Origin: Phyllobacterium bourgognense
GTDB lineage: Bacteria > Pseudomonadota > Alphaproteobacteria > Rhizobiales > Rhizobiaceae
Assembly: GCF_003337575.1 (NCBI RefSeq)
Contig: NZ_QPJM01000002.1
Location: 248,001 to 312,000, forward strand
DNA length: 64,000 nucleotides
Direction of reading: 5' to 3'
The notes beneath the pieces are model-generated. The model had not been told where the DNA came from. It did not search any database and saw only the letters and a list, made by a program, of their open reading frames with translations. This document shows, piece by piece, positions 30,024 through 36,433 of the stretch. The translations under genes and the position numbers were made by a program. Each line of letters starts with the position of its first letter. The first letter of the stretch is position 1.

Positions 30024-30761
30024 CTAGTCGTTTTTGATTTCGAAAGGTGGCAGGCTTTGGAATGCAAGTTTCAAGGCCTGTGACCAACCATCTGAAATCA
30101 TTTCATAATAAGGATCATGGCGTTCGATGCGTTTTTCGAAACCAAGCTTGAGACTGTCCGACTCGTAGAACTGTAAGTCCAGCGGCAGGCCGACTGACAG
30201 ATTGGACTTCAACGTCGAATCGAAAGAAACCAGCAACAGCTTGGTCGCTTCCTCGAAAGTCAGCGCGGGGTCGTAGGACCGCACAATAATCGGCTTTCCG
30301 TATTTGTGCTCACCGATTTGGAAGAAGGGTGTGTCCGGCGTCGCTTCAATGAAATTCCCCTCAGGATAAATCAGGAAAAGCCGCGGATCGCCGCCTTTGA
30401 TCTGACCTCCAAGGATAATCGAGGCGCCGAATGAATCGGCGCGCTGCCCGCCGGAATCCACCTCGTCGATGACATGTCGTATTGTATCGCCAACAAGCCT
30501 TGCCGTCTGGAACATCGATGGCATTTCGTAGATCGATGGCGACCGTTCGGACGGCTCCTTGGTGCGTTCATTCAGGATGCTGATGACCGCTTGGGTCGTT
30601 GCCAGGTTACCAGAAGAAACCAGCGTGATAACGCGGTCGCCCGTCTTGGCCCACGTATACATTTTCTTGAATGTGGAGATATTGTCGACACCAGCATTTG
30701 TTCTGGTGTCAGACATGAACACAAGGCCGCGGTCCAGTTTGAGCCCCACGCAGTAAGTCAT
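30024..30761 (-). CDS. Anbu, proteasome-type protease
   Basis: A 245-residue Ntn-hydrolase of the Anbu family, related to HslV and proteasome beta subunits. The protein starts MTYCVGLKLDRGLVFMSDTR; removal of Met would expose Thr1, with Asp17 in SDTRT and Lys31/Lys32 in STFKKM as further catalytic candidates. It is the last gene of a four-gene minus-strand operon with transglutaminase, alpha-E and ATP-grasp genes, a known association. Anbu assembles into ring or helix-like oligomers, and its natural substrate is not established. Confidence 0.92.
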   Translation of the reverse strand: MTYCVGLKLDRGLVFMSDTRTNAGVDNISTFKKMYTWAKTGDRVITLVSSGNLATTQAVISILNERTKEPSERSPSIYEMPSMFQTARLVGDTIRHVIDEVDSGGQRADSFGASIILGGQIKGGDPRLFLIYPEGNFIEATPDTPFFQIGEHKYGKPIIVRSYDPALTFEEATKLLLVSFDSTLKSNLSVGLPLDLQFYESDSLKLGFEKRIERHDPYYEMISDGWSQALKLAFQSLPPFEIKND

Positions 30762-30791
30762 AGCGAATCCCGAATCCCGATAGCAGAGCGA

Positions 30792-31589
30792 TTACTGCTC
30801 TACATTGACCTCTACGGCAAGCGATTCAATGCCCGGTCCAAAGCGGATACCGGAAACTGGTGCCGCTTCGCGGTAGTCGAGGCCACAAGCCAGACGCACA
30901 TAGGTTTCATCCGGACATATATCGTTGGCCGCGTCGAACCCCACCCAGCCCAGTCCTTCTATATGTGCCTCTGCCCACGCGTGGCTTGCCGTCTGTTCAA
31001 TCGTGTTGTTCAGCATGAGATAGCCGGACACGTAACGGGCGGGAATGTTGAGCAAGCGTGCGGTAGAAATGAAAACATGGGTATGGTCCTGGCAGACGCC
31101 TTTGCCGTTGAGAAACGCTTCCTCGGCCGTCGTGCTGATGTTGGTAGTGCCTGGTGTGTAGACCATTTTCTGATGCAATAGTGCCATCAGTTCGTGCATG
31201 ATTGCCAGTTTGTCGGTCTTGGCCGGCAAGCTTGCTGCCAATTCGCGGATCGAGTCGCCCGGTTTGGTCAGGTCCGTTTCACGCTCGTAGAGCCATATCG
31301 GCATGAAATTATAGACCTTGCCGAGAACGCCTGTGCGATCCTCGGTTTCGACGTGGCCTTCAGCGCGTATCACCAGTTCCTCGATGTCGCGATCAAGCCG
31401 TATCAGCATGGTGCGATTGCCATAGCCGTCGCGGTAGTTCGCTTCCTGCGTCGCGCCCTCCACATTGAGCGCCCAATCGATGACTTTTTGGCCCGGGCTG
31501 CTCTGTGGATGCATCCGCAATCGCAGCACCGAATAATGAACCGGAGCGTCGTAACGATAGCGGGAGTTGTGCTGGATATTCAAAAGCAT
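30792..31589 (-). CDS. Transglutaminase-like cysteine peptidase family protein
   Basis: A 265-residue protein with an N-terminal beta domain (MLLNIQHNSRYRYDAPVHYS) and a transglutaminase-like core. The triad candidates are Cys166 in GKGVCQDHTHV, His203 in ASHAWAEAHIEG and Asp219 in GFDAAND. Bacterial members usually act as peptidases or amidotransferases. ATG 31589 gives the family N-terminus; a TTG at 31598 would overlap the alpha-E stop by 4 bases and is possible. The Anbu gene follows after 30 bases. Confidence 0.9.
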   Translation of the reverse strand: MLLNIQHNSRYRYDAPVHYSVLRLRMHPQSSPGQKVIDWALNVEGATQEANYRDGYGNRTMLIRLDRDIEELVIRAEGHVETEDRTGVLGKVYNFMPIWLYERETDLTKPGDSIRELAASLPAKTDKLAIMHELMALLHQKMVYTPGTTNISTTAEEAFLNGKGVCQDHTHVFISTARLLNIPARYVSGYLMLNNTIEQTASHAWAEAHIEGLGWVGFDAANDICPDETYVRLACGLDYREAAPVSGIRFGPGIESLAVEVNVEQ

Positions 31590-31594
31590 GATCT

Positions 31595-32536
31595 TCAATC
31601 AAAATTGTATGCGTGAGCAATCTTGCTGCTCAAGCTGTTCGTTTGATAAATGAGATCGCTCAGGAATTCGTGTAGTCCATTGTCAAAAATGGTGCGGATC
31701 TCATTGTGCTCTAGCCGGGTCATAATACCCTCGGACATGTCATGGCATTCGTGCCGCTTGCCGTAGTCGAGGGCAAGGTATTTCAGATTATCGACGATAT
31801 TGGAGTAGCAGAAATTCAGGGACCGGGGCATCCTTGAATTCAAGATCAGATAATCCGCAATGTTCACGGGATTGTATTCGACATCATAGACCCAGCGATA
31901 AGAGCGGTGTGCGGAGACGGACCGCAGGATAGATTCCCATTGGAAGTTGTCGAGGGTGGTCCCAACATATGAAATCGAGGGAAGCAGCACGTAATATTTA
32001 ACGTCGAGAATGCGCGCGGTGTTATCCGCCCGCTCGATGAAAGTGCCAATGCGTGCGAAATTGAAAATCTCGTTGCGCAGCATCGTTCCATGAAAAGCAC
32101 CGCGGATAATCGCCGTTTCGCGCTTGATCTGATCGAGAACACGCGGGAGGTCGGTTTCGGGGATATTCGATGCCAGTGTCGATTTGAGCACCATCCAGGT
32201 CTCGTTGACGCTTTCCCAGGCCTCACGCGTTAGCGCAGTGCGCACCATGCGTGCATTGGATCGCGCGGTTTCAACACAAGCCATGACGCTCGAGGGATTA
32301 CTCAGATCACGCAACAGGAAATCGGAGACCAGGCTGGCATTATACTCCTTATATTTGCTGTCATAGCCGATCTTCACTCCCGCACTCATCAATACGGAGG
32401 ACCATTCCTCGGGCGCGTCGGACGTTTTCGTCAGTGCCATTCGCAGTCCGGCATCGATGAGCCGTGCCATATTCTCTGCCCGCTCAATATAACGGAACAT
32501 CCAGTAGAGACCATTTGCGGTGCGGCCAAGAAGCAT
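31595..32536 (-). CDS. Alpha-E domain protein
   Basis: A 313-residue all-helical alpha-E protein with the diagnostic start MLLGRTANGLYWMFRYIERA and ENMARLIDAGLRM. The biochemical function is unknown, and the domain occurs almost only beside ATP-grasp, transglutaminase and Anbu genes, sometimes fused to them, which implies a shared reaction. Conserved acidic and Arg residues in the helices suggest a binding role. It is placed second in the operon, 68 bases after the ATP-grasp gene. Confidence 0.9.
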   Translation of the reverse strand: MLLGRTANGLYWMFRYIERAENMARLIDAGLRMALTKTSDAPEEWSSVLMSAGVKIGYDSKYKEYNASLVSDFLLRDLSNPSSVMACVETARSNARMVRTALTREAWESVNETWMVLKSTLASNIPETDLPRVLDQIKRETAIIRGAFHGTMLRNEIFNFARIGTFIERADNTARILDVKYYVLLPSISYVGTTLDNFQWESILRSVSAHRSYRWVYDVEYNPVNIADYLILNSRMPRSLNFCYSNIVDNLKYLALDYGKRHECHDMSEGIMTRLEHNEIRTIFDNGLHEFLSDLIYQTNSLSSKIAHAYNFD

Positions 32537-32604
32537 TTTCTAGTCGTATCCTTTTTGTAGTTCCGGAACCGTCTTGAGCGATTCTTATTCCCCTCAGAAC
32601 AAGT

Positions 32605-34017
32605 CTAGTCGTCCAGCACCCAGGTATCCTTCGTACCTCCACCTTGACTGGAATTGACCACGAGCGAGCCCTCTTTCAATGCGACACGCGTCAAACCGCC
32701 AGGTGTGATGCGTATGCGGTCAGATACGAGCACGAAGGGTCGCAAATCCACGTGGCGCGGCGCCAAACCTTTTTCGGTCATGATCGGCGTTGTCGAAAGC
32801 GCAAGCGTTGGTTGTGCGATGTAGTTTTTCGGATTGGCCTTCAGTTTAAGAGCGAAGGCCTCGCATTCCTTCTTGGAAGCCGCCGGACCGACGAGCATCC
32901 CGTATCCGCCGGAGCCGTGAACTTCCTTGACCACGAGATCAGAGAGGTTTTCGAGCACATACTTGAGCGTGTCCGGTTCCGAGCAGCGATGCGTCGGTAC
33001 ATTTTCCAAAATCGCCTTGCGTCCTGTGTAGAATTCAACGATCTCCGGCATATAGGAGTAGAGCGCCTTGTCGTCGGCAATCCCCGTGCCGGGCGCGTTG
33101 GCAATCGTGATGTTCCCCGAACGATAGACATCCATGATTCCGGCAACGCCGAGAGCTGAATCGCGGCGGAAGGTGAGGGGATCGAGGAATGAATCGTCAA
33201 CCCGCCTGTAAAGAACATCTATGGCGCGGTTGCCTTCTGTCGTCCGCATGACGACCTTGCCATTCTCAATCTTGAGGTCGCTCCCCTCGACGAGTTCGAC
33301 ACCCATCTGATCGGCGAGAAAGGCGTGTTCGAAGTAGGCGGAGTTGTAGATGCCTGGCGTCAGAACCGCGATGGTGGGCGTATCCTTGCAGCCGGGCGGA
33401 GCAACCGCCGCCAACGATTGCCGTAGCAGCTTGGGGTATGTCTCGACGGGACGCACCTTGATCTGCTGGAACAGCTCTGGAAACAGCTGCATCATCGTTT
33501 CGCGGTTTTCCAGCATGTATGAAACGCCGGAAGGTGTGCGCGCATTGTCTTCCAGAACATAAAATTGGTTCTCTTCTGTCCTGACGATGTCGACGCCGAT
33601 GATATGCGTGTAGACGTTTCCCGGTGGCCTAAACCCCACCATTTCCGGCAGATAGGCATCATTGTGGGTGAAAAGTTCGCGTGGAATGCGGCCAGCGCGG
33701 ATAATCTCCTGGCGGTGATAGATATCATCAAGAAACGCGTTGAGCGCCATGACGCGCTGCTCGATGCCCTGTGACAGCCGGCGCCATTCATTGCCGGTGA
33801 TAATGCGGGGAATGATATCGAATGGGATAAGGCGTTCGGCAGCTTCCTCGTCGCCATAGACCGCAAATGTAATCCCGGTCTTGCGAAAAACGTTCTCGGC
33901 ATCAAGCGACTTTTGAGCCAACCGCTCGGGATTCTGCGTATCAAGCCAGCATTTTAGCTGTTCATATGGCGGGCGCACTTCTCCGCCTGTTTTGATCATC
34001 TCATCAAATGGCTTCAC
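32605..34017 (-). CDS. Circularly permuted ATP-grasp type 2 protein
   Basis: A 470-residue ATP-grasp enzyme of the circularly permuted class (DUF404/407). Marks are GNEWRRLSQGIEQRVMALNA near residue 76, the EDNARTPSGVSYMLENRE segment near 155, and VVKEVHGSGGYGMLVGP near 360. ATP-grasp enzymes form amide or ester bonds via acyl phosphates, so a peptide-ligating role is inferred. It begins with GTG at 34017, supported by AAGGGGG five bases upstream, and leads the Anbu operon. Confidence 0.9.
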   Translation of the reverse strand: MKPFDEMIKTGGEVRPPYEQLKCWLDTQNPERLAQKSLDAENVFRKTGITFAVYGDEEAAERLIPFDIIPRIITGNEWRRLSQGIEQRVMALNAFLDDIYHRQEIIRAGRIPRELFTHNDAYLPEMVGFRPPGNVYTHIIGVDIVRTEENQFYVLEDNARTPSGVSYMLENRETMMQLFPELFQQIKVRPVETYPKLLRQSLAAVAPPGCKDTPTIAVLTPGIYNSAYFEHAFLADQMGVELVEGSDLKIENGKVVMRTTEGNRAIDVLYRRVDDSFLDPLTFRRDSALGVAGIMDVYRSGNITIANAPGTGIADDKALYSYMPEIVEFYTGRKAILENVPTHRCSEPDTLKYVLENLSDLVVKEVHGSGGYGMLVGPAASKKECEAFALKLKANPKNYIAQPTLALSTTPIMTEKGLAPRHVDLRPFVLVSDRIRITPGGLTRVALKEGSLVVNSSQGGGTKDTWVLDD

Positions 34018-34180
34018 TCAAACCCCCTTCATGTAAGCGTATTCAAGCGGGTTCGGCGGAAAATGCAAGCACATTCCAATGTTGAGGAATGACTCCGGAA
34101 GCACGGCTCAAAAATTAGGCAACTACAGTGCGATAGAGGCAGGCGCAATGCGCTTTTCGTCTAATACGTGAGCTGGTATT

Positions 34181-34219
34181 CAAAACAAAGGGCCCGTCTA
34201 CCACTGGTAAACGGGCCCT
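34181..34219 (-). terminator. Terminator of the BA14K gene
   Basis: A long near-perfect stem, AGGGCCCGT (34189-34197) with ACGGGCCCT (34211-34219), is extended inside by TACC/GGTA. On the minus strand it is followed by a T-rich tract. It lies 19 bases after the BA14K stop and insulates the Anbu operon promoter. Confidence 0.85.
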
Positions 34220-34237: not shown

Positions 34238-34708
34238 TTAGTATGGCGATACGCATTGGCGACGTGGGCCGTAGTTGGGCTGATATGTATTGTCATAGGC
34301 CCTGTATGACCGATAGCGGTTGTAGCACCACTGCGTGTGCGCACTGCCGGCACGATAGACCGGACGAGGAGCGAGGGCGCTACCCACTATAACACCGGTA
34401 CCAAAGGCAGCCAGGGGGAACCAGGCGCCGTTGTAGTAGCGATAGCCCGGACGATAGTAATTGTATCCGCGGTATCCTCCATACCGATACCGGTCGCCAC
34501 GATAGTAGCGACCTCCACGATAGTAGCGATTGCCGTTCCAGTTTCGGCCGCCGCGATAATGCCGTCGGTATTGCACCTGCTCGATGTTGGCGCTCGTGGT
34601 TTCGATACTCAGCGGCGCAAGCGGCGCCGAAAATGCGGGTATCGGACCGACCGAGGTCAGTCCCGCCGACATCGCAAGTGCGGCAAGCATTGAAGTTAGT
34701 TTCCTCAA
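34238..34708 (-). CDS. BA14K family secreted protein
   Basis: A 156-residue protein related to the Brucella 14-kDa immunoreactive protein. It has a signal peptide (about residues 1-28, PAFSA), then a Tyr/Gly/Arg-rich region of YYRGGRYYRGDRYRYGG type, a short hydrophobic stretch (AAFGTGVIVGSALAPR) and the BA14K box HTQWCYNRYRSYRAYDNTYQ near the end. The start is TTG 34708, set by AGGAGG five bases upstream; the next ATG (34690) would shorten the signal peptide. It has its own terminator. The family is linked to lectin-like or envelope roles. Confidence 0.9.
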   Translation of the reverse strand: MRKLTSMLAALAMSAGLTSVGPIPAFSAPLAPLSIETTSANIEQVQYRRHYRGGRNWNGNRYYRGGRYYRGDRYRYGGYRGYNYYRPGYRYYNGAWFPLAAFGTGVIVGSALAPRPVYRAGSAHTQWCYNRYRSYRAYDNTYQPNYGPRRQCVSPY

Positions 34709-34844: not shown

Positions 34845-35528
34845 TCAAGCGTTAACTGCACCTATCAAATCGTCTGCAAGCTTTACCTTCAACTCACGAT
34901 AGTGTGAGATGATCCTGCTCGGTTCATAGGTTGCAACCGGTAGATCGGAGTAGCCGAAATCCACCGCGATTACAGGAATCCCCGCGGCCTTTGCCGTGTT
35001 GATATCCGTTTGGCTGTCACCGATCATCACAGCGCGCTCGGGGTCGCCGCCAGCCTTGCGGATGGTTTCAACCAGATGGCGCGGGTCAGGCTTGCGGAAG
35101 GCAAACGTGTCGGAACCGCAAATCGCACTGAATCGCGATGATTGACCAAGACCCGCCAGGAGGTTGACGGACAGGCCTTCAAACTTGTTGGTGCACACCG
35201 CCAGCAGATAGCCGGCGCTCGACAAGTCTTCCATTGCCTGTTCGGCACCTTCATAGAGCGCCGAGTGGCCAGGCATATTGGCACCGTAATGTTCGATGAA
35301 GATACCGACCAGCCAGTCAAGTTGTTCTGGGCTCAGCAGCTTTTGCTGTGCTTCGAATGCTCGTTCAATCATCACCCGTCCGCCTTGTCCGACATAACGG
35401 CGCAGCGTGACCGGATCGACCTTTTGCAGGCCTGTTTCTCCAAGGCAATGGTTGAGACTATCGAGCAGGTCGGGGGCGGTATCCACCAGAGTTCCGTCAA
35501 GATCAAATACGACAATGGGTTTGGACAT
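34845..35528 (-). CDS. gph: Phosphoglycolate phosphatase (HAD family)
   Basis: A 227-residue HAD hydrolase. Motif I is VFDLDGTLVDTAPD (nucleophile Asp9), motif II AVCTNK near residue 111, motif III FRKPDPRH near 150, and motif IV MIGDSQTDINTAKAAG near 168. The overall pattern matches Gph, which removes 2-phosphoglycolate formed by DNA repair or other chemistry. It is divergent from rpiA across a 200-base spacer. Another HAD phosphatase specificity cannot be excluded. Confidence 0.88.
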   Translation of the reverse strand: MSKPIVVFDLDGTLVDTAPDLLDSLNHCLGETGLQKVDPVTLRRYVGQGGRVMIERAFEAQQKLLSPEQLDWLVGIFIEHYGANMPGHSALYEGAEQAMEDLSSAGYLLAVCTNKFEGLSVNLLAGLGQSSRFSAICGSDTFAFRKPDPRHLVETIRKAGGDPERAVMIGDSQTDINTAKAAGIPVIAVDFGYSDLPVATYEPSRIISHYRELKVKLADDLIGAVNA

Positions 35529-35728: not shown

Positions 35729-36433
35729 ATGGATGCCAAATCGCTGAAGATCAAAGCGGCTGCGGAGGCCCTGACCCACGTCAAGGATGGCATGCGCCTT
35801 GGAATCGGGACAGGCTCGACAGCCGAGGAGTTCGTGCGGCTCTTGGCGGAAAAGGTCGCATCTGGAATGAACGTCATTGGCGTACCTACATCGGAACGCA
35901 CTGCGGCTCTCTGCCGCGAACTCGGCGTCACGCTGAGCACCCTGGAAGAAACGCCGCAGCTTGATCTTACGATCGACGGTGCTGACGAGGTCGACCCTGA
36001 CCTCGTATTGATAAAAGGCGGCGGCGGTGCCTTGCTGCGGGAAAAGATCGTCGCGGCCACTTCGAGCGAAATGATCGTGATTGCAGACGAATCGAAGCTG
36101 GTGAATACGCTGGGCGCCTTTCCCTTGCCCATCGAAGTCAATCGTTTTGGGCTTGCGGCCACGAAACTCGCCATCGAGCGGGCTGCTGGCAAGCTTGGAC
36201 TTGCAGGTCCTGTTACATTGAGGATGACTGGAGACGAAGCATTTGTTACAGACGGCGGGCATTTGATCCTGGATGCATCTTTTGGCCGCATTCCGGATAC
36301 AAGAGCTCTATCGAACGCTCTGCACGCCATACCCGGCGTGGTCGAGCATGGACTTTTCCTGGGACTGGCGCGCGTGGCCATTTTGGCCGGTGCTGACGGT
36401 GTCAGAACACTGCGGAGCAGCCCGTCTGTTTAG
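35729..36433 (+). CDS. rpiA: Ribose-5-phosphate isomerase A
   Basis: A 234-residue enzyme that interconverts ribose 5-phosphate and ribulose 5-phosphate in the pentose phosphate pathway. Motifs: [18 protein letters not shown] near residue 28, [20 protein letters not shown] (residues 82-101) with the catalytic Asp pair, and the REKIVA segment. Length and order are standard. The signal-peptide DUF2059 gene follows on the same strand after about 100 bases. Confidence 0.95.

Follow-up and report, generated by a model that had tools for sequence, protein, structure and literature searches.

Introduction

Operons built around Anbu have been in print since 2008-2009. Here we describe one from Phyllobacterium bourgognense, found in a stretch of 64,000 nucleotides (positions 248,001-312,000 of the forward strand of contig NZ_QPJM01000002.1; this whole stretch is called the window). 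At window positions 30024-34017 it encodes, in order, a circularly permuted ATP-grasp ligase, an alpha-E protein, a transglutaminase-fold enzyme and Anbu. Our best explanation for it, to which we give a probability of roughly 0.5, is a cytosolic make-and-trim amide system in which a nitrogen-limitation ligase would be served by hydrolases. The closest described relatives are the operons of Yersinia bercovieri and Pseudomonas, which agree with it in their four families and gene order, in the Anbu-1 active site and S1 pocket and in a ligase near the solved structure 3n6x (PMC6376114, PMC5666114; published work is cited throughout from extracts of the papers). The window differs from these in lacking a sigma54-like site, in its other neighbours and in a Peptidase_Mx gene that lies unlinked in the genome.

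The same genome holds a second, fused cluster (contig C18, locus L098), consisting of a giant transglutaminase-DUF2126 gene, an ATP-grasp ligase fused to alpha-E (816 residues) and a further transglutaminase. Its ligase, alpha-E and transglutaminase families are common to the window; it differs in having no Anbu, in the ligase-alpha-E fusion and in the extra DUF2126 domain, and the window ligase is 30% identical to the fused one. A class V aminotransferase gene and a family 5 solute-binding protein gene stand after this fused system on the same strand. A similar logic is seen in the RimK/RimB pair, where RimK is an ATP-grasp enzyme that adds glutamates; we know of no alpha-E or Anbu in that pair, and the fold of the RimB protease differs from those of the window hydrolases. 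RimB cuts the resulting polyglutamate (PMC12239564). Extracts of the same paper describe the rlo operon of Pseudomonas aeruginosa, which likewise combines an ATP-grasp protein (RloC), a transglutaminase-fold protein (RloB) and a protease (the retropepsin RloA), and in which RloB or RloC mutations rescue loss of the proteases. It differs from the window in its secreted retropepsin-like proteases and its inactive transmembrane transglutaminase, and those extracts mention no alpha-E. By analogy, we would call rlo the closest experimentally studied system in logic, with a different set of families.

Results

The comparison covers two class samples comprising 285 genomes. The first holds 142 alphaproteobacterial genomes, P. 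bourgognense included, and the second 143 genomes from the class of the Caballeronia genome G158, itself included, which we take to be Gammaproteobacteria in the GTDB sense. For Anbu, the query was a single protein in the first class, with a cut-off at an expectation value (E) ≤1e-20, and an alignment in the second, cut off at E≤1e-15. Also used were 80 named loci with alpha-E, fetched out of 592 confirmed, and a survey of the surroundings of Anbu, alpha-E or ligase genes in 139 fetched stretches. It should be considered that genomes within these samples are related, so that the counts are not independent trials and the P values given below ignore relatedness.

The strongest result is that the genomes carrying alpha-E and those carrying the CP_ATPgrasp_2 ligase are identical sets: the same 48/142 alphaproteobacterial genomes and the same 41/143 of the second class, 89/285 in total, and no alpha-E genome in the samples is without this ligase. 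For 123 of 125 alpha-E matches, a ligase match on the same strand ends no more than 700 base pairs (bp) upstream or is fused to alpha-E; the remaining two lie at a contig edge (G124) and in a broken fused frame (G069). Fusions occur in the P. bourgognense genome (one) and at loci L101 and L250-L252. Given this shared set of genomes and this linkage, alpha-E behaves as an obligate partner of the ATP-grasp ligase, which is the role we propose for it, and we infer that the two proteins make physical contact. The distribution of the genes suggests that the pair forms the constant core of the system.

Anbu, by the same comparison, appears to depend on this pair but to be optional. Anbu-type genes occur in 35/142 and 36/143 genomes, of which 35/35 and 34/36 (69/71) fall inside the alpha-E/ligase set; of the two outside it, G182 has a 126-residue fragment and G230 a gene on a contig of 3,476 bases. 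Conversely, 20 alpha-E genomes of the two samples have no Anbu match at all. Anbu stands alongside alpha-E in 36 of the 80 named loci and not in the other 44, which come from Rhizobium, Agrobacterium, Sinorhizobium, Shinella, Martelella, Ciceribacter, Neorhizobium, other Rhizobiales and four Burkholderiales; in two of the 44 (L161, L170) the fetched sequence stops no more than 300 bp from the transglutaminase gene, so that absence cannot be read from the locus itself, and the genome of L170 was searched whole. Nineteen genomes were searched whole: Anbu was absent at E≤1e-3 from 16/16 Rhizobiaceae, all of which keep ligase, alpha-E and transglutaminase, and was found elsewhere in 2/3 Burkholderiales with an Anbu-less locus. 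As a replacement for Anbu after the transglutaminase gene of Anbu-less loci, no gene on the operon strand recurs in more than 12 of them, the one that reaches this number encoding a protein of ~160 residues that is DnaJ-like by eye. Where Anbu is present, Thr1, Asp17, Arg19, Lys32 and Gly50 are invariant (36/36 named loci, 28/28 aligned class sequences).

The position after alpha-E is where a further enzyme came to light. Among 12 second-class loci selected for having no transglutaminase nearby, eight have a common neighbour of ~350 residues, composed according to Pfam of Zn_ribbon_DZR_6 and Peptidase_Mx (Mx hereafter), and a ninth Mx locus, L215, was overlooked by the simple gene caller and recovered later. 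The gene lies directly after alpha-E on the same strand, overlapping it or separated by less than 70 bp, in seven loci (L215, L216, L218, L219, L223, L254 and L255), and is convergent with Anbu in L217, L220, L221, L226 and L256. The family profile and an HExxH motif mark it as a predicted zinc metallopeptidase; in an alignment of 16 sequences this motif and seven zinc-ribbon cysteines are invariant (16/16) and the eighth cysteine nearly so, and in a second alignment of 52 all eight cysteines are invariant. One protein gave a confident structural model (predicted local distance difference test, pLDDT, 88.9) with no significant match in the PDB. Its best Foldseek match was weak (E 0.014, template modelling (TM) scores of 0.21/0.26) and pointed to 4l7a, likewise a putative zinc-binding metallo-peptidase.

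Full-length Mx (E below 1e-70) is found in 8/142 and 18/143 genomes, all 26 of them in the alpha-E set (26/26, hypergeometric P = 4e-15), a count that leaves out nine genomes with weak partial matches (E 1e-9 to 1e-3), six of which are without alpha-E. Fifteen of the 27 copies lie within 10 kilobases (kb) of an alpha-E or ligase gene. Transglutaminases were counted by PF08379, which is the N-terminal region only, so that cores without it would escape; on this count, full-length Mx occurs in 8/10 alpha-E genomes without PF08379 versus 18/79 with it (Fisher P = 6e-4). Judged by gene distribution, Mx is thus a partner that co-occurs with the system in both classes, while its position marks it as such mainly in one. 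An earlier note on this DNA had advised comparing gene order for a conserved fifth partner, and Peptidase_Mx is what that comparison found. In our literature search no pathway or operon link for Peptidase_Mx came up; the founding 2009 paper lay outside that search and may contain one. The P. bourgognense genome has a single copy, unlinked (contig C15, L244), and a P. zundukense plasmid carries a relative of it, annotated as a putative zinc-binding metallopeptidase, near stress-protein genes.

Since a metallopeptidase takes the position held elsewhere by the transglutaminase, the slot would seem to need a hydrolase, and its occupation suggests hydrolysis over crosslinking for the so-called transglutaminase. 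We would lay even odds on the fuller idea of an interchangeable slot after alpha-E, in which either a cysteine or a zinc enzyme would act on the ligase product, the 'transglutaminase' would be a hydrolase and Anbu an optional third one.

The transglutaminase-fold enzyme itself is widely kept. Its Cys, His and Asp are each present in 36/36 Anbu-bearing named loci, and in the 44 Anbu-less loci, at positions with letters, Cys is found in 42/44, His in 43/43 and Asp in 42/42; Ser replaces Cys in the operon transglutaminase of two Burkholderia loci, L114 and L129. In both of these loci a giant transglutaminase-DUF2126 gene comes next, downstream, and there are sigma54-like and NtrC-like sites upstream. 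In alphaproteobacterial loci the gene usually stands between alpha-E and Anbu; it is missing there in L068, L072, L076, L083 and L085, and the catalytic Cys is lost in 2/17 aligned proteins (L074, L079). A PF08379 protein is nevertheless encoded somewhere in 48/48 alphaproteobacterial alpha-E genomes (and in one genome without alpha-E) and in 31/41 of the second class (with a weak match in one genome without alpha-E), counts that weaken our earlier reading of the transglutaminase as dispensable.

Expression of related operons has been followed by others. Burkholderia cenocepacia I35_5080-83, comprising ligase, alpha-E and two transglutaminase-domain genes, is under NtrC- and sigma54-dependent nitrogen control (PMC5491218). 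In Pseudomonas putida, growth on nitrate versus ammonium raised PP_2685 by 4.4 log2 and PP_2688 by 4.0 log2, and the PP_2688 promoter was induced 3.7-fold on nitrogen depletion (PMC8050072); PP_2686-2688 rose 11- to 15-fold under nitrogen limitation, on our interpretation of the column order of the published table (PMC7801951). In marine metagenomes these domains are associated with urea-metabolism domains (PMC3597751). Our own scan of upstream sequences, which used a sigma54 consensus, 21 class locus starts entered by hand and background starts from a simple gene caller, with L110 dropped for want of a ligase, found cores matching at least 11/12 positions in 5/101 operons versus 0/933 background upstreams, three alphaproteobacterial families being included and two of the five best operons both being Burkholderia. 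At at least 10/12 the counts were 8/101 versus 7/933, and at at least 9/12 they were 12/101 versus 41/933. Sigma54 control of the window operon was considered and rejected, its best site reaching only 7/12. By eye, Rhizobiales operons have a CTTGCATT-like block in common, similar in form in many of them; in the window it takes the form CTTGCATTT (Table 1).

The window operon is a canonical Anbu operon, one further member of a known system: four families on one strand in the order ATP-grasp, alpha-E, transglutaminase, Anbu. The earlier note had recognised these as four adjacent minus-strand genes with short gaps, had assigned the hydrolases a Cys166/His203/Asp219 triad and an N-terminal Thr, and had stated that the families occur together in many bacteria, and all of this was borne out. 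Intergenic gaps from ligase to Anbu measure 68, 5 and 30 bp, the Pfam families match, the triad numbering is correct from the ATG at 31589 (it becomes 167/204/220 in the one-residue-longer translation; a TTG at 31598 is an alternative start), and Anbu opens with Met-Thr and has Asp17, Arg19 and Lys32. Many families show the identical gene order and residues, so the operon is not a chance arrangement. No terminator-like sites were listed in the three operon gaps, and regional counts of such sites equalled the shuffled background.

Table 1. Features of the operon and its upstream region, in window coordinates
Feature	Position	Strand	Basis
Circularly permuted ATP-grasp type 2 ligase, 470 residues, GTG start	32605..34017	-	PF14403 + PF04174
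Alpha-E protein, 313 residues, all-helical, proposed obligate ligase partner	31595..32536	-	PF04168
Transglutaminase-fold cysteine hydrolase (predicted), Cys166/His203/Asp219 from ATG at 31589	30792..31589	-	PF08379 + PF01841
Anbu (Anbu-1 type), N-terminal nucleophile hydrolase (predicted), Met-Thr start, 245 residues	30024..30761	-	Solved Anbu chains
CTTGCATTT block ~45 bp before GTG, candidate promoter element, by eye	34061..34069	-	Upstream sequences compared side by side
Terminator-like hairpin, 14 pairs, after BA14K gene, between that gene and operon	34189..34219	-	

Three of the four proteins, the ligase, the transglutaminase fold and Anbu, are identified both by profiles and by solved relatives. 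The ligase matches CP_ATPgrasp_2 (PF14403) at 4e-165, PF04174 at 9e-148 and solved 3n6x at 1e-195 over 469 residues, is 49-72% identical to 23 aligned unfused class relatives, and has both the family profile and the conserved core of an ATP-grasp amide ligase. The third gene matches Bact_transglu_N (PF08379, 5e-22) and Transglut_core (PF01841, 3e-21), with the Cys-His-Asp triad of its family in place. Anbu matches the Pfam Proteasome family at 2e-9 and also solved Anbu chains (5loy 7e-90, 5nyj 8e-80, 5nyf 3e-79, 5nyw 1e-70, 5lox 2e-64), its nearest proteins among the matches listed being from Phyllobacterium; its S1 pocket reads T20/F30/S48/L52/T55, agreeing with the Anbu-1 pattern of T20, F30, S/T48, L52 and S/T55 (positions from PMC5666114 and PMC6376114). 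Alpha-E matches PF04168 at 8e-92; a sequence search at E≤1 found no solved relatives, and its AlphaFold2 model, confident and nothing but helices (pLDDT 88.8, predicted TM score 0.88), had no informative or significant structural match in the PDB. A PADLOC search with the four operon proteins and the Mx of the same genome gave 0 anti-phage defence matches at E≤0.001.

Homologues of the neighbouring L,D-transpeptidase, gor, DUF2059 and moaA-like genes, and of the genes at 34845-35528 (phosphatase-like) and 35729-36433, were found only in two other Phyllobacterium loci of the 139 stretches; GGCT was found in none of the 139, though in those two Phyllobacterium loci it would fall at the stretch edge, which makes this negative a weak one. 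Upstream of the operon (34238-34708) lies a Tyr/Gly/Arg-rich protein of the BA14K family, for which no match of at least 80 residues was found near the 139 other loci, a weak test on low-complexity sequence. A conserved extra gene in alphaproteobacterial or Rhizobiales flanks was sought and none found at the operon: the largest flank cluster in 24 class loci covers 6 loci, with proteins that have no assigned name and unequal lengths. Among the 80 named loci the recurrent clusters, named by eye, are a DEAD-box helicase, a drug/metabolite transporter, a tRNA-guanine transglycosylase-like protein and, in 4 loci, a MogA-like protein, and look like order-level synteny. The earlier note had seen no substrate peptide gene in the operon, and that observation extends to its relatives, a small encoded substrate finding no conserved candidate among frames of at least 60 codons (24 class loci) or at least 50 codons (80 named loci). 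In 14 Mesorhizobium-type loci (L115-L133, L179) there is also a recurrent gene for a 78-residue protein, by eye similar to a stand-alone AsnC/Lrp effector domain, which shares the strand of the ligase and ends ~170-600 bp upstream of it.

Two groups of loci deserve separate mention. Nine of the 35 alphaproteobacterial Anbu genomes have Anbu-2-type genes unlinked to the ligase (L089-L097; I20/A29 by eye), and one more of the 35 has a 95-residue match. All nine Anbu-2 genomes carry ligase and alpha-E and no other Anbu match at E≤1e-20; clpS-clpA is nearby in 6/9, and a D-Ala-D-Ala carboxypeptidase-like gene in 7/9 (by Pfam for L096, by clustering for the others). The published papers, in the extracts cited here, know of no AAA+ partner of Anbu, and the proximity of clpS-clpA may be inherited synteny. 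In the second group, L105 (Caballeronia) and L111 (Paraburkholderia) have a rhizobial-like trio with no Anbu alongside, ligase 85% and alpha-E 70-73% identical to those of the window, and both genomes encode a distinct Anbu (49-50%) elsewhere. The trio looks like a horizontal acquisition.

Discussion

The make-and-trim explanation can be put in a few steps. The circularly permuted ATP-grasp protein and alpha-E would form one obligate two-part ligase, which would use ATP to activate a carboxylate and couple this to an amine; the result would be a peptide or peptide-like tag. The hydrolase encoded after alpha-E, a transglutaminase-fold cysteine enzyme here and a zinc-ribbon metallopeptidase in some other bacteria, would trim or remove this product, and Anbu, where present, would be a third hydrolase, of the threonine type and optional, that acts on this product or its carrier. 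Since the ligase, alpha-E and transglutaminase genes are turned on under nitrogen limitation, at least in Pseudomonas and Burkholderia, nitrogen scarcity is probably the condition in which the product is made. The amide bond, the nature of the substrate and the hydrolysis of the ligase product by the slot enzymes are what we infer. Experimental work fits in part: the operon ATP-grasp of Y. bercovieri releases phosphate in an ATP-dependent manner (PMC6376114), P. aeruginosa Anbu binds proteasome inhibitors (PMC5666114). Anbu and its operon partners are not essential in non-stress growth (PMC6376114, PMC5666114). The earlier note had supposed that ligase and alpha-E build something which the two hydrolases process. 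The building pair is upheld by its shared genomes and the hydrolases are indeed attached to it; what did not survive is their standing as an equal pair, given the Rhizobiaceae that do without Anbu while keeping the other three genes, the five alphaproteobacterial loci with no transglutaminase between alpha-E and Anbu and the two proteins that have lost the catalytic Cys.

Several observations weigh against this explanation. If weak partial Mx matches are included, the alpha-E set holds only 29/35 Mx genomes; 12/27 full-length copies are not within 10 kb of a ligase or alpha-E gene, only 18/79 alpha-E genomes with a PF08379 transglutaminase have full-length Mx, and the ~15 kb fetched around each of four plasmid copies contained none of the four operon families. 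Two of the ten genomes without PF08379 are doubtful, as G253 has a DUF2126 gene cut by a contig end and G300 a transglutaminase-like gene beside a second Anbu; with both reassigned, Mx is found in 6/8 without versus 20/81 with (Fisher P = 0.007). As to nitrogen, the window operon is without a sigma54-like site, induction of the P. putida trio persists in an rpoN mutant, and in the wild type under nitrogen limitation Anbu itself (PP_2685) changed just 1.12-fold (PMC7801951). In the extracts of PMC6376114, a Y. bercovieri pull-down detected no operon protein in specific complex with Anbu and none of the fluorogenic peptides was cleaved by the Anbu proteins tested, and the authors of PMC5666114 prefer protein degradation, a role in peptide synthesis being less likely to them.

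Other explanations have to be set against these data. Protein tagging has been proposed in the literature (PMC6376114, PMC5666114): ligase, alpha-E and transglutaminase would tag cell proteins during nitrogen starvation and Anbu would degrade or de-tag them, as a small proteasome route. Anbu is indeed related to the proteasome, its active site is intact and nitrogen induction is published; however, the trio does without Anbu in all 16 Rhizobiaceae searched, the window operon has no AAA+ gene, and the want of peptidase activity in the Anbu proteins tested (PMC6376114) tells against it too, so that we find it doubtful. A small-molecule route, in which the pair would make a soluble peptide metabolite or nitrogen store resembling glutathione or a polyamine conjugate for the hydrolases to recycle, draws on the annotation of 3n6x as a putative glutathionylspermidine synthase, on the association with urea metabolism in metagenomes, on co-induction with urea transport and urease genes (PMC8050072, PMC7801951) and on the lack of a peptide gene at the operon among frames of at least 50-60 codons. 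It is unlikely in our view: a ring of threonine protease subunits looks like more than a small metabolite would call for, and no metabolic or transport gene is conserved at the operon beyond order-level synteny (top flank cluster 6/24 class loci).

The remaining alternative, the processing of cell-wall peptides or glutathione, was a hint that the earlier note took from the L,D-transpeptidase and gor/GGCT neighbours. These genes are truly present in the window, but of the 139 stretches just two, both from Phyllobacterium, have the first two again, so that comparison lends these leads no support, and Anbu, transglutaminase and Mx have no obvious signal peptide by eye; we hold this route to be very improbable.

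Anbu is a bacterial proteasome relative whose substrate has been an open question since its naming in 2008. The results above shift the focus from Anbu to the ligase, the product of the ATP-grasp and alpha-E core being the thing to seek, and best sought under nitrogen limitation in strains without the hydrolases, where it would accumulate. Peptidase_Mx, a large putative metallopeptidase family, gains a candidate pathway. If the interchangeable slot is real, three unrelated protease chemistries would have been recruited to one nitrogen-limitation ligase.

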